Of a DNA stretch of 41,550 nucleotides, positions 7,563-30,501 are shown one piece after another. Made by a program: the position numbers and the translations under genes. The DNA is from Lachnospiraceae bacterium (GTDB lineage Bacteria > Bacillota > Clostridia > Lachnospirales > Lachnospiraceae): positions 1 to 41,550 of the forward strand of contig JAUNGI010000022.1 of NCBI GenBank assembly GCA_030524525.1. Direction: 5' to 3'. The notes under the pieces were generated by a model, which worked only from the letters and a program-made list of their open reading frames with translations, ran no database searches and had not been told where the DNA came from. The stretch's first letter is position 1. Each line of letters starts with the position of its first letter.

Positions 7563-8231
7563 ATGGATGAGATCAAAATTCTGGTGGTGGACGACGAGAG
7601 CCGGATGCGGAAGCTGGTCTGCGATTTCCTGCAAAAGCGGGGCTACCGGACTTATGAGGCGGAAAACGGGGAGCAGGCAGTCGATCTGTTTTTTGAGAAA
7701 AAGGACGTGAATTTGATCATTCTGGACGTGATGATGCCCAAAATGGACGGCTGGCAGACCTGTCGGGAAATTCGTCAGTATTCCAAGGTGCCGATCATCA
7801 TGCTGACCGCCAAAGGCGAAGAAAAGGACGAGCTTCTGGGCTTTCAGCTGGGGGTTGACGAATATATCAGCAAGCCGTTCAGTCCAAAGATCCTGATGGC
7901 TCGCGTCGATGCCATTCTGCGAAGGAGCGGTACGGCGGAAGAAAAGCTGGAGGTCGGCGGCATCGTCGTGGACAAAGCGGCGCATCAGGTGACGGTGGAT
8001 GGGGTTCCCATTGAACTGAGCGTAAAGGAGTTTGAACTGCTGACCTACTTCATTACCAATCGGGGCGTGGCGCTGTCCCGCGAGAAAATACTGAATAACG
8101 TATGGAACTACGATTATTTCGGCGACGCGCGGACGATCGACACCCATGTAAAAAAGCTTCGCAGCAAGATGGGCGAAAAGGGCGCTTACATTAAAACGAT
8201 CTGGGGAATGGGATATAAATTTGAGGTTTGA
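7563..8231 (+). CDS. OmpR/PhoB-family response regulator
   Basis: The 222-residue protein has an N-terminal receiver domain (about 4-117) with the acidic pair DDE, phospho-acceptor D55 in LIILDVMMPKMDG, the conserved Thr in IMLTA and Lys in ISKPFSP. A winged-helix DNA-binding domain (about 128-222) ends in the typical TIDTHVKKLRSKMG and TIWGMGYKFEV. It should bind DNA as a dimer when phosphorylated by the kinase encoded downstream. The ATG at 7563 is favoured by GGAGG at 7550-7554; two earlier in-frame starts overlap that site. The kinase gene follows, but only after a 214-bp gap containing a structured leader, which is unusual for such pairs. Confidence 0.92.
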   Translation: MDEIKILVVDDESRMRKLVCDFLQKRGYRTYEAENGEQAVDLFFEKKDVNLIILDVMMPKMDGWQTCREIRQYSKVPIIMLTAKGEEKDELLGFQLGVDEYISKPFSPKILMARVDAILRRSGTAEEKLEVGGIVVDKAAHQVTVDGVPIELSVKEFELLTYFITNRGVALSREKILNNVWNYDYFGDARTIDTHVKKLRSKMGEKGAYIKTIWGMGYKFEV

Positions 8232-8286: not shown

Positions 8287-8430
8287 AAGGGAAAAGTCAC
8301 ACGGAGGCGTTGATTTTTCCCTTGGCTGTTTGCGACGGAGCACAAACAGTTTGGGAACAGGAAGTGTTCCTTGCCGCAGGGCGGGAATTGGAGATTCTCG
8401 GCGCGGCGCCTCGCAAATAAATCCGCTCCG
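8287..8430 (+). promoter_or_regulatory. Structured leader element, copy 1 (upstream of histidine kinase)
   Basis: Four hairpins can be drawn. P1 is AAGGGAAAA (8287-8295) with TTTTCCCTT (8315-8323). P2 is GGCTGTTTG (8324-8332) with CAAACAGTT (8343-8351), with a 10-nt loop containing CGGAGC (8336-8341). A copy-specific hairpin occupies 8354-8370. P3 is CGGGAAT (8382-8388) with ATTCTCG (8394-8400). GCTCCG at 8425-8430 is complementary to the P2 loop and sits 2 nt before the GGAGAGG ribosome-binding site. A second copy with compensatory changes lies at 29612-29734. A linker CGCAAA (8412-8417) could alternatively pair with TTTGCG (8329-8334) and open P2. I infer a translational control element; ligand or partner unknown. 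Confidence 0.6.
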
Positions 8431-8445
8431 TTGGAGAGGTAAAAA

Positions 8446-9996
8446 TTGAAACATACGATTTCCTTTCGTACAAAAATGGCGCTGGCCTTTGTCGTGGCGG
8501 TGGCGAGCGCAGTCGGTCTCTGCTGGCTGATGTCGCGTTTTTTCCTGAAGGATTATTATACGGACATGAAGCTGGAAAATTTGGAGAGCTGCTACCGTGC
8601 GGTCAATCAGGCGTTCGGGGAGAATATGGAGCTTACGGAGGACGGCGATCTGATCTTGGAAAAGCTGTCGGATAACGGGCGCGTCAGTCTTCTGGTTATC
8701 AATCCGAGCGACACCGGGAATGAACGCTACCTCTTTACCACGGAATATAACAATATGGCGCTCGGACGTATGCTTTCCTCCATTCAGAAATACTTAAATC
8801 TGAGTACCGGTCAGGCGCCCTATGAGGTGCTGCGCTCGGATTCCGAAAACTACTCGATCTATAAGCTTTACGATGAGACGACCGACCGAAACAATATCGA
8901 CCTGTTCGGAAAGCTCGACAACGGCTGCTATGTTTTTCTGAGCACCAGCTATCAGAGCATTACGGACGCGGCGGACATTGCCTCCGGCTTTCTTGCGCGC
9001 GTCGGTATCGTGGTCATTATCTGCGGCGCCGTGCTCGTCTATTTCCTGAGCAATCTGATCACCCGTCCCATTCATCAAATGTCGGAGATCGCTCTGCGGA
9101 TGAGCCATCAGGATTTTGAGGCGCGTTTTCCGGTTCGCGGCAACGACGAGATCGGGATTCTGGGCGATTCCATGAATAAGCTGTCCGAGCGGCTGGAGGT
9201 GACGATCAAGGAGCTGAAGGAAGCGAACAACGAGCTGCAAAAGGATATTCAGCGCAAGGTGGAGATCGACAATATGCGGACGGATTTTATCTCGAACGTC
9301 TCGCATGAGCTGAAAACGCCGCTGGCGCTTATTCAGGGCTATGCGGAGGGGCTGCAGGAAAACATCAACGACGATCCGGAGAGCCGTGAATTCTACTGCG
9401 AGGTCATCGTGGACGAGGCGAAGAAAATGAGCCGGATGGTAAAGAAGCTTCTGACGCTGCATCAGATCGAGTTCGGGCAGAACACGCTGGAGCTGGAACG
9501 CTTTGATATTGTCGGAATGCTGCGCACCGTATTGGAAGCGACGGATATTCTGCGGGAGCAGAAGGAGGTCACGCTGCATTTTCGGGAGACCCAGCCGGTC
9601 TATGTATGGGCGGACGAGTACCTGATCGAGGAGGTCGTTACGAATTATTTGAGCAACGCCATGAACCATGTGGCAAAATCGAAAGAAATTGCGGTTTCGC
9701 TGCAGAAAATGGGTGCAAGCGTCCGGGTTTCCGTGTATAATACAGGAGAACCGATCCCCGAAGAAGACTTGGAAAATATCTGGGTCAAGTTCTATAAGGT
9801 GGACAAGGCAAGAACGCGCGAATACGGCGGCAGCGGGATCGGGCTGTCCATCGTAAAGGCGATTATGGAGAGCCACAATCAGAAATACGGGGTCATCAAT
9901 CATCCCGGCGGGGTAGAGTTCTGGTTTGAACTTGACGCCGCCGAAGAGACTACAACGGACGGAAGGCTGGTAGAGGAACATGATAGCGATCATTGA
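8446..9996 (+). CDS. Sensor histidine kinase (HAMP, HisKA, HATPase_c)
   Basis: The 516-residue membrane kinase has a first transmembrane helix near 10-27 and an extracytoplasmic sensor region (about 30-180). A second helix lies near 183-205 (IVVIICGAVLVYFLSNLI), then a HAMP linker (about 206-260). The HisKA domain carries phospho-acceptor H287 in SNVSHELKTPLA, and the ATPase domain has an N-box around NYLSNAMNHV and a G-box around GGSGIGLSIVKAI. It should phosphorylate the response regulator encoded upstream; the signal is unknown. Translation starts at a TTG (8446) after GGAGAGG (8433-8439). The start region is preceded by a structured leader that may control translation. The end overlaps hisH by 17 bp. 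Confidence 0.93.
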   Translation: MKHTISFRTKMALAFVVAVASAVGLCWLMSRFFLKDYYTDMKLENLESCYRAVNQAFGENMELTEDGDLILEKLSDNGRVSLLVINPSDTGNERYLFTTEYNNMALGRMLSSIQKYLNLSTGQAPYEVLRSDSENYSIYKLYDETTDRNNIDLFGKLDNGCYVFLSTSYQSITDAADIASGFLARVGIVVIICGAVLVYFLSNLITRPIHQMSEIALRMSHQDFEARFPVRGNDEIGILGDSMNKLSERLEVTIKELKEANNELQKDIQRKVEIDNMRTDFISNVSHELKTPLALIQGYAEGLQENINDDPESREFYCEVIVDEAKKMSRMVKKLLTLHQIEFGQNTLELERFDIVGMLRTVLEATDILREQKEVTLHFRETQPVYVWADEYLIEEVVTNYLSNAMNHVAKSKEIAVSLQKMGASVRVSVYNTGEPIPEEDLENIWVKFYKVDKARTREYGGSGIGLSIVKAIMESHNQKYGVINHPGGVEFWFELDAAEETTTDGRLVEEHDSDH

Positions 9997-29305: not shown

Positions 29306-29325
29306 AAGTCTGACAAAAAAATAAA

Positions 29326-29443
29326 TTCTTCGGGGGCAGGGTGACTCGAAAGAGAATTCCCGACCGGCGGTACAGTCCGCGAGCGTTTTGCTGATCCGGT
29401 GAGATTCCGGAACCGACAGTAAAGTCTGGATGAGATGAAGAAA
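29326..29443 (+). promoter_or_regulatory. FMN riboswitch (RFN element)
   Basis: The conserved RFN core is present in order: TTCTTCGGGGGCAGGG, ATTCCCGACCGGCGGT, AGTCCGCGAGC, GATCCGGTGAGATTCCGG, CCGACAGT, AGTCTGGATG and closing GAAGAA. It binds flavin mononucleotide and represses downstream genes. A helper hairpin at 29450-29471 (GAAA loop) and a terminator at 29491 form the expression platform. TTCGGGGG (29329-29336) in the aptamer's 5' side is identical to the terminator's 3' arm, so CCCCCGAA (29491-29498) can pair with either, which explains FMN-dependent termination. Confidence 0.96.
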
Positions 29444-29490
29444 AGCGAAGTCCGTGCAGAAATGCATGGACGGTTTGTGCGGTACAAAGC

Positions 29491-29520
29491 CCCCCGAATT
29501 CGTTCGGGGGTTCTTTTTTT
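29491..29520 (+). terminator. Riboswitch-controlled terminator
   Basis: CCCCCGAA (29491-29498) and TTCGGGGG (29503-29510) form an 8-bp stem with a stable TTCG tetraloop, followed by TTCTTTTTTT. Confidence 0.92.
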
Positions 29521-29522
29521 GC

Positions 29523-29549
29523 TCTATGGGAACCTGTAGTTCCCATAGA
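29523..29549 (+). other. 11-bp perfect hairpin downstream of the riboswitch terminator
   Basis: TCTATGGGAAC (29523-29533) pairs with GTTCCCATAGA (29539-29549) around a CTGTA loop. No T-run follows. Function unclear; it sits between the transcription-control and the putative translation-control part of the leader. Confidence 0.6.
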
Positions 29550-29550
29550 A

Positions 29551-29570
29551 CAAAAACCGCTCCGCTGGGG
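29551..29570 (+). repeat. Truncated third copy of the structured-leader tail
   Basis: This stretch contains CCGCTCCG (29557-29564) in the same local context (CAA-A-rich run before, a G-rich run after) as the 3' ends of the two structured leaders at 8412-8440 and 29718-29745, but with no hairpins of the element before it. Its GCTCCG could compete for the CGGAGC loop at 29660-29665. Confidence 0.4.
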
Positions 29571-29611
29571 ATCACATTTGTTCCTTCCGATCCGAAGAAA
29601 ACGAGGTAAGA

Positions 29612-29734
29612 GTGAAAATCAGGCTGATGCGCTGCTTTTTCACCCTCGGCGGTTTGCGGCGGAGCACAAGCCGCCGGTGATCGCAGCCGAAAATTTGGGA
29701 TTTTCGGCGCGGCACTTCGCAAGAACACGCTCCG
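29612..29734 (+). promoter_or_regulatory. Structured leader element, copy 2 (upstream of ribU)
   Basis: P1: GTGAAAA (29612-29618) with TTTTCAC (29637-29643). P2: GGCGGTTTG (29648-29656) with CAAGCCGCC (29667-29675), with loop CGGCGGAGCA containing CGGAGC (29660-29665). P3: CCGAAAAT (29687-29694) with ATTTTCGG (29700-29707). GCTCCG (29729-29734) can pair with the P2 loop and ends 4 nt before the AGGAGG site. The linker CGCAA (29718-29722) can pair with TTGCG (29654-29658). Stems differ from copy 1 at 8287-8430 by compensatory changes, while loop and linker sequences are conserved, which points to an RNA rather than a peptide. Function unknown. Confidence 0.6.
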
Positions 29735-29751
29735 CTATAGGAGGTAGAAAA

Positions 29752-30501
29752 ATGAAAAATTTTTTGTCGAATCTCAAGGATATGGCGCTGCAGGCGAAGG
29801 AGCATCTGGGCTTTCTGCTCGCCGCCGTCTGCGTTGTGGCTGTGATCGTAGGTCTTGCCTACGCGGCGGAGGCGCTGATTCGGAAGGTACATAAGGAAGA
29901 GGCGCGCGGAAAAGAGTCGATGCGGCTTCGGCGGATGACGCTGATCGCCATGCTGTCCGCGATCGCCACGGTCCTGATGCTGTTTGATTTTCCGGTATGG
30001 TTCATCCCCAGCTTTTATAAGATGGATTTCAGCGAGCTGCCCGTGATCATCGGCGCGTTCGCGCTCGGGCCGGTGGCGGGCGTGCTTATCGAATTTTTGA
30101 AGGTGTTCCTCAATCTGTTCCTGAACGGAACGGACACGGCGTTTGTGGGAGAATTTGCAAACTTCTGCATGGGATGCTGCTATGTGGTTCCCGCGTCGAT
30201 TCTCTATTACGCAAAAAAGACGAAAAAGAACGCCGCGATCGGTCTGGGGCTGGGCGTTCTGATCGCCACGCTTGCGGGCTGCCTTCTGAACGCGTATCTC
30301 CTGATCCCGACCTATTCCAAGGTGTTTCATATGGATCTGAGCATCATCATCGGGATGGGAACGGAAAAGAACGCCAGCGTCGGCGGGCTGTTTACGTTCG
30401 TCACGCTGCTGGTGGCGCCGTTCAATCTGCTGAAATATACGCTGATGTCCGTTATTACGATGTTCAGCTATAAGCATATCAGCCGTCTTTTGAAGGGCTA
30501 G
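29752..30501 (+). CDS. ribU: RibU-type ECF transporter substrate-binding (S) component for riboflavin
   Basis: The 249-residue integral membrane protein is the riboflavin-specific S component of an energy-coupling-factor transporter, which works with a shared EcfT and EcfA module encoded elsewhere. The family motif DFPVWFIPSFYKMDFSELPV and IGAFALGPVAGVLIEFLK are present, followed by several hydrophobic helices. The FMN riboswitch in its leader strongly supports riboflavin or FMN as substrate. There is an extra N-terminal hydrophobic helix (about 18-41) and basic linker before the usual start (near MRLRRMTLIAML), making it longer than typical RibU. The ATG at 29752 follows AGGAGG (29739-29744); the frame is open upstream to 29578 only by chance. 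Confidence 0.93.
   Translation: MKNFLSNLKDMALQAKEHLGFLLAAVCVVAVIVGLAYAAEALIRKVHKEEARGKESMRLRRMTLIAMLSAIATVLMLFDFPVWFIPSFYKMDFSELPVIIGAFALGPVAGVLIEFLKVFLNLFLNGTDTAFVGEFANFCMGCCYVVPASILYYAKKTKKNAAIGLGLGVLIATLAGCLLNAYLLIPTYSKVFHMDLSIIIGMGTEKNASVGGLFTFVTLLVAPFNLLKYTLMSVITMFSYKHISRLLKG

Follow-up and report, generated by a model that had tools for sequence, protein, structure and literature searches.

A probable family of mobile, structured RNA repeats at Shine-Dalgarno–start codon junctions in a Lachnospiraceae bacterium

The leaders of two genes in a 41,550-nucleotide stretch of Lachnospiraceae DNA (hereafter the window; GenBank assembly GCA_030524525.1, contig JAUNGI010000022.1, positions 1 to 41,550 of the forward strand) carry copies of a structured element that recurs elsewhere in the same genome. 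We consider it probable that the element represents a family of mobile, sense-only, RNA-structured repeats that enter Shine-Dalgarno (SD)–start junctions and re-supply an SD kept open by a pseudoknot. Direct observation covers the structure and its covariation, the number of copies, their placement and orientation, and two clean empty sites. In the proposed mechanism, the element would insert in the sense orientation into the spacer that separates the SD of a gene from the start codon, and the element's own 3′ end would then provide a replacement SD, mostly 5–6 nt before the host start.

Results

The first, diverged copy (8287..8443, forward strand; covariance model (CM) match C51:8281-8443, E 2.3e-27, the copy itself being in the seed alignment) follows a response-regulator frame that ends at 8231 and precedes the TTG start codon (at 8446) for a histidine kinase identified by NCBIfam. 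It comprises the P1 hairpin (8287..8323), the P2 hairpin (8324..8351) with a 10-nt loop at 8333-8342, an extra hairpin GGGAAC...GTTCC (8353..8370) and the P3 hairpin (8373..8408). The P2 loop contains the pseudoknot 5′ strand CGGAGC (8336-8341), and its complement GCTCCG, the 3′ strand or anti-SD (8425..8430), is followed by the element-borne SD GGAGAGG (8433..8439) and the start codon TTG (8446-8448). A hairpin resembling the extra one is also found in the copy before eda in this genome (G000 C40:6881).

The second copy (29610..29747, forward strand; CM match C51:29603-29747, E 9.5e-41, also in the seed) precedes ribU, and its closest relatives, 92% and 91% identical, lie elsewhere in the same genome. 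Its P1 hairpin (29612..29643) opens with a start-codon-like GTG (29612-29614) and is followed by P2 (29648..29675, loop 29657-29666, pseudoknot 5′ strand CGGAGC at 29660-29665), P3 (29676..29714), the 3′ strand or anti-SD GCTCCG (29729..29734), the SD GGAGG (29740..29744) and ATG (29752-29754). Just 5′ of this copy is an SD-like GAGG (29603..29606, forward strand), presumed to be the native ribU SD, which is also able to pair with CCTC at 29644-29647. The gene is called ribU on the strength of its ECF substrate-component domain and an upstream FMN riboswitch, NCBIfam giving no match.

The preliminary description of these leaders reported three hairpins, a shared P2 loop, a CGCAA linker and GCTCCG before the SD, all of which are present in both. 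The paired base changes that it listed also check out: T8327-A8348 against G29651-C29672 in P2, G8324/G8325 pairing with T8351/T8350 in one copy and the equivalent bases with C29675/C29674 in the other, G8385-C8397 against A29691-T29703 in P3, and the P1 pair T29613-A29642. Its statement that the element is present twice holds for the window, where the pattern CGGAGCA...TCGCAA...GCTCCG occurs exactly twice and in 0 of 100 shuffles, but is an undercount for the genome.

At curated scores, Rfam recognised three tRNAs in the window, the FMN riboswitch that lies at 29323-29445 ahead of the ribU copy, and nothing else, in keeping with the earlier remark that the element was not recognised as a known riboswitch. 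Permissive scans of both window leaders returned nothing relevant, and at curated score none of 10 loci with other subfamilies gave a match over the elements; the sole weak match was to TD-2, antisense, at E 0.096. A terminator-like hairpin (about 29490-29522, by eye) follows the FMN riboswitch; the element lies between this riboswitch and ribU. A second dispersed repeat is found at 29509-29573, in which runs of T and A border a long hairpin and CGCTCCGC(T)GGGGATC comes next. It occurs in eight distinct contexts among the fetched loci of this genome, and a similar hairpin is present in the congener G004 (L184).

Blastn with the ribU copy found 12 places in the same genome at E below 1e-12, its own among them, with identities of 73-100%; some of these copies are in tandem, others 5′-truncated. 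A covariance model built from eight copies gave 63 matches in this genome at E<=0.01, rising to 78 at E<=1. The set of 63 includes an artefact at C30:57726, where the model matched the reverse strand of a tandem copy, and some other members lie on duplicated or redundant contigs, so separate insertions number somewhat fewer than 63. Identical elements with identical flanks occur on two contigs at C20:65768/C23:6704 and C20:60660/C23:11831, reflecting either a duplicated segment or redundant contigs.

Homologues were found before start codons, contrary to one of the outcomes that the preliminary description had named as refuting. Among 21 other genomes of the genus, 19 had no CM match and two had one weak match each, both lacking the P1-P2 layout and an SD and start at the end. 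A family-wide scan was positive in 28 of 299 genomes, an order-wide scan with a second model in 12 of 295 (in this family and one sister family), this genome being counted in both, and a phylum-wide scan in 1 of 398, this genome alone; all three counts are lower bounds because 7-10 candidates were scored per genome under stricter filters. Presence is sporadic even inside genera. The copies analysed below form a set of 142, with 42 from this genome (E<=1e-6) and 100 fetched from 24 of the 27 other positive family genomes.

A short 3′-end motif common throughout the genome was set aside as an explanation, there being 14 occurrences here against 0-6 in each of the 21 congeners. Carriage by phage or plasmid was likewise rejected: the plasmid sequences searched held no element match, three exact patterns had none in IMG/VR, and only three partial matches were found, in unannotated human-gut scaffolds deposited as phage. 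Different element subfamilies precede the enolase gene in this genome (L191, named by NCBIfam) and an enolase-like start, judged by eye, in one phage-deposited human-gut scaffold (L255, MT836788.1).

Among the copies listed, the recurrent layout begins with P1, P2 (loop of 9-10 nt) and P3, continues with a CGCA-like linker and the complement of the P2 loop, and closes with the SD and the start codon. P3 is variable and at times absent, and element length ranges from about 100 to 170 nt. When 100 copies were aligned to the model, both partners had changed in 38 of the 42 P1-P3 pairs and 90.4% of cells were paired, with 0 of 500 shuffles reaching this on any of five measures; sliding the partners by 1-3 columns lowered pairing to 35-54%. 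These effects are flattered because the alignment was fitted to this same fold. The eight-copy seed alone was no better than shuffled in its number of covarying pairs (6 versus 6.2), while its covariation score was better than shuffled. Overall, the covariation across P1-P3 bears out the earlier proposal of a structured RNA. Conserved unpaired bases are GA in the P1 loop, AT.GCAG before P3 and CGC..A after P3. Across the stems, G-U outnumbers A-C by 125 to 80, which favours RNA over single-stranded DNA as the selected form without proving it, since the excess is modest and absent from P1 (6 versus 14). One copy (L211, C7:29873) has P1 and P2 loops that read by eye as their own reverse complements within an otherwise normal order; it follows a gene end, and by eye no gene was found behind it.

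The pseudoknot is not part of the covariance model. Over 131 distinct loop/3′-end combinations from 25 genomes, the mean score was 21.63, versus 15.95 when permuted and 19.0 when permuted within genomes, and 0 of 10,000 permutations was as good in either scheme. At least seven consecutive complementary bases are present in 119 of 142 copies, the other 23 having six or fewer, and at least ten compensated versions occur, including CGGAGCA/TGCTCCG, TTCTGAGCGA/TCGCTCAGAA, CCGCAGGCGC/GCGTCTGCGG and GAGAACGC/GCGTTCTC. In copies L427 and L428 of genome G941 a loop change is matched in the 3′ strand, while the similar copy L426 has an unmatched combination. On this comparative evidence the P2 loop:3′-end pseudoknot is real, as was its predicted position adjoining the ribosome-binding site.

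In the RNA, the P2 loop pairs with the bases directly before the element's SD, bases that could otherwise pair with the SD itself. The preliminary description had raised an on/off switch as a possibility, and as a possibility it is supported, the alternative examined here being pairing of GCTCC with the element's own SD. The loop:3′-end duplex averaged -15.1 kcal/mol against -7.6 kcal/mol for the local 3′ fold and was the stronger in 106 of 118 copies, on energies that exclude the pseudoknot loop cost. In 83 of 118 copies, four or more of the nine SD-zone bases are taken up by the local fold; by eye, the CUCC:SD alternative appears weak in types such as CCGCAGGCGC/GCGTCTGCGG. Because the pre-SD bases, once freed, could pair with that SD, the pseudoknot probably keeps the SD open. 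An open SD would in turn make insertions tolerable even before core genes, and the element presumably has an effect on translation. The pseudoknot is not essential for the host gene, since 5′-truncated copies without P2 still precede genes.

A 5′ end was recognisable in 130 of 142 copies and not in the other 12. The 14 nt before this end contain GGAG, GAGG or AGGA in 100 of the 130 copies (30 having no such tetramer ahead), compared with 5, 14, 20, 11, 18 and 21 of 130 in six control windows further upstream. At the 3′ end, a permissive rule found an SD-like tetramer and a start codon in 122 of 130, with an SD-to-start spacing of 5-6 nt in 87 of the 122. ATG frames of at least 100 codons begin at the 3′ end of 115 of the 142 copies (27 being without), versus 6 of 142 for antisense frames read from the 5′ end; among 1420 random positions, 293 had such a frame. 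In this genome alone, a permissive rule gave an SD, a start and a frame of 60 aa or more for 54 of the 63 matches, and the remaining nine include tandem upstream units, the reverse-strand artefact and the copy at C7:29873, which no gene follows. Spacing from the upstream SD to the insertion point is variable. Target choice appears to follow the SD–start spacer.

The alternative that the preliminary description allowed, a dispersed structured repeat lying near start codons by chance, is the nearer of its readings, except that the location near starts is more than chance. On its refuting outcome of a mobile repeat in random orientation the evidence is divided: species-specific occurrence and empty sites agree with mobile-repeat behaviour, but the orientation is sense and start-proximal rather than random. 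Among individual loci, L427 lies at a close stop/start junction (hypB) and L431 behind an apparent T-box leader (by eye); the TA|G junction would make a TAG stop for the upstream gene.

The placement past a native SD also bears on a mobile upstream-ORF cassette, in which that SD would serve an NTG of the element and the ribosome would then couple to the host start. Positions 3-5 of the element are GTG, TTG or ATG in 123 of 130 copies, mostly 4-7 nt past the upstream SD. In 38 of 118 copies the resulting frame stops no more than 30 nt from the host start, and in 46 of 118 it runs open as far as that start, the other two frames doing so in 0 and 17. Most frames stop sooner, however, at scattered places, and the substitutions by codon position (532, 500 and 593 over 97 pairs) show a slight third-position excess; the NTG also lies within the conserved end of P1 and could be kept for other reasons. 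We consider this cassette improbable. A protein-coding repeat in its own right was rejected, the NTG frame of the ribU copy ending after 22 codons and the third-position excess among copies being only slight. In the C30 copy, the element's own NTG frame runs into the host gene.

Two orthologous sites are cleanly empty in relatives. The rimM leader of the nearest congener sampled reads GGGAGCATAAATGG and has no element, while here the element stands between the native SD and the start, as GGGAGCATA|GATTGAAA...GAGGATTA|AATGG. The hypB leader is empty in G866 (GGAGAGAGAATAGATGAAAG), and in G941 an element follows GAGAGGAGCAGATA and ends before ATATGAAG. For ilvE and aspS the agreement is in outline only, the relative's upstream sequence being partly alignable; for rarA and an ABC permease that region is unalignable at the junction, and a search of the nearest relative did not recover an eno orthologue. 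The pattern expected of MITE-like repeats was found, namely 63 matches against none or one weak match per congener, with orthologous sites empty. Copies were probably gained by movement rather than lost from relatives.

No terminal inverted repeats of the element were seen by eye, the ends being GTGTGAAAAATC or GATTGAAAAATC and GGAATGGAGATTA. The analysis found neither an autonomous copy nor an enzyme that would mobilise the element. The TA at both rimM junctions could be a target duplication or an element end; among 39 copies with a left dinucleotide other than TA, the right spacer has TA somewhere in 22 and the same dinucleotide somewhere in 23. These features bear on a non-autonomous transposon acting at the DNA level (IS200/IS605- or REP-like, mobilised in trans) whose target motif resembles an SD by chance, the fold serving as single-stranded DNA ends and any translation effects being a by-product. 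Hairpins at the ends, the lack of visible inverted repeats and a 5′ flank ending in A in 114 of 130 copies (TA in 88) all fit such a transposon, and motif-directed insertion combined with selection against intragenic hits could yield the SD placement. On the other side, this genome (97% complete) has no Y1 transposase at E<=1e-10, the SD-to-insertion spacing varies and G-U exceeds A-C overall. Across 48 genomes neither candidate mobiliser tracks the element, Y1 transposases being present in 9 of 24 carrying versus 12 of 24 non-carrying genomes and reverse transcriptases in 13 of 24 versus 17 of 24, and mobilisation by IS200/IS605 or a reverse transcriptase was set aside accordingly. A Y1 source may lie outside this genome. 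We regard the DNA-level transposon as rather unlikely.

Of the 130 copies, 61 begin GTGTG, in line with the group II intron 5′ consensus GUGYG. If the element were a minimal intron of the self-splicing or trans-spliced kind, its excision would restore the leader seen at empty sites. Other copies, however, begin GATTG (39), GAGTG (8) or otherwise, a splicing element would be expected inside coding regions too, and reverse transcriptase counts do not correlate with the element. Rfam, moreover, gave no intron match over the window copies or the 10 loci of other subfamilies, and we think such an intron extremely improbable.

The genes behind the element are diverse. Pfam assigned 150 families among 118 downstream proteins, the commonest family being matched by only 3; the tally covers 118 of 125 downstream frames, in pieces of at most 230 aa, with seven omitted by eye as tandem-internal or doubtful starts. 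Hosts named by NCBIfam include enolase, aspartate-tRNA ligase, RimM, LeuS, release factor 3, RelA/SpoT, GMP synthase, the branched-chain aminotransferase IlvE and KDPG aldolase. The earlier idea of a riboswitch-type regulator was not borne out by this tally. Such a regulator, an unrecognised translational riboswitch or ligand-sensing leader controlling a regulon, would account for the complex conserved fold, the pseudoknot adjoining the SD, the conserved unpaired bases, the location mostly upstream of starts and the copies in tandem. It sits poorly with the gene diversity, with near-identical copies before unrelated genes, with the absence of a convincing copy in 21 congeners and the empty sites in relatives, and with ribU being already under an FMN riboswitch. 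Because the downstream genes are diverse, with no single-pathway association, and presence is sporadic across genomes, we rejected a riboswitch regulon and hold it to be very improbable.

Discussion

We favour a mobile repeat that re-supplies the SD of the gene it enters. More tentatively, it is possible that the element is a new class of mobile RNA whose machinery recognises translation-initiation regions, with entry only between SD and start, in the sense orientation, as a self-adjusting SD unit. If such targeting is true, each entered gene would be a translation unit under one shared RNA switch, and a common control would extend to dozens of genes that are otherwise unrelated, some of them core genes. 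Should the element's own machinery account for the start-site targeting, the element would form a separate class. In either case it occupies, and rebuilds, the SD–start spacer, the few nucleotides of a gene under the tightest constraint, even before enolase, RimM and GMP synthase. The family offers a natural experiment in how RNA structure around the SD sets translation. It may alter the expression of many genes at once within one lineage and, as a guess, may explain spurious short proteins in annotations of such genomes.

A search of the literature, covering the main text of open-licence papers, found nothing on this element, and it was compared with systems that share some of its features. 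IStrons are larger than the element. They too are mobile and have an RNA property said to render insertions harmless, but each, in the available portion of the source, is a DNA transposon joined to a self-splicing group I intron (PMC4227781). The element, unlike IStrons, appears harmless through target choice and SD re-supply. The translational riboswitch candidates pnuC and odc1 (PMC8632094), and those of PMC11109978, show a similar interplay of pseudoknot and SD before the start; as presented in the excerpts of both papers, they are tied to particular genes, whereas the element appears mobile and is not gene-tied. PMC11109978, in the same excerpts, also includes a category for mobile or repeat motifs.

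One expects small mobile repeats at the sites where an insertion is least damaging, and in Streptococcus pneumoniae the BOX, RUP and SPRITE repeats occur in excess between convergent genes (PMC3049150, in the text available). Like the element, these repeats are short, structured, multi-copy and nearly species-restricted, are regarded as parasitic and have few clear ties to the functional classes of their neighbours. Unlike them, the element lies in sense between SD and start and carries an SD, a placement not described in that portion of PMC3049150. bcr1 (147-167 bp) and other stem-loop repeats of Firmicutes resemble it in being intergenic, of similar length and of common fold, but the accessible part of PMC2267715 describes neither placement at start codons nor a pseudoknot to an element-borne SD. 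BOX, RUP, SPRITE and the bcr1-type repeats are closest in behaviour, none being tied to SD–start junctions as described in those sources.
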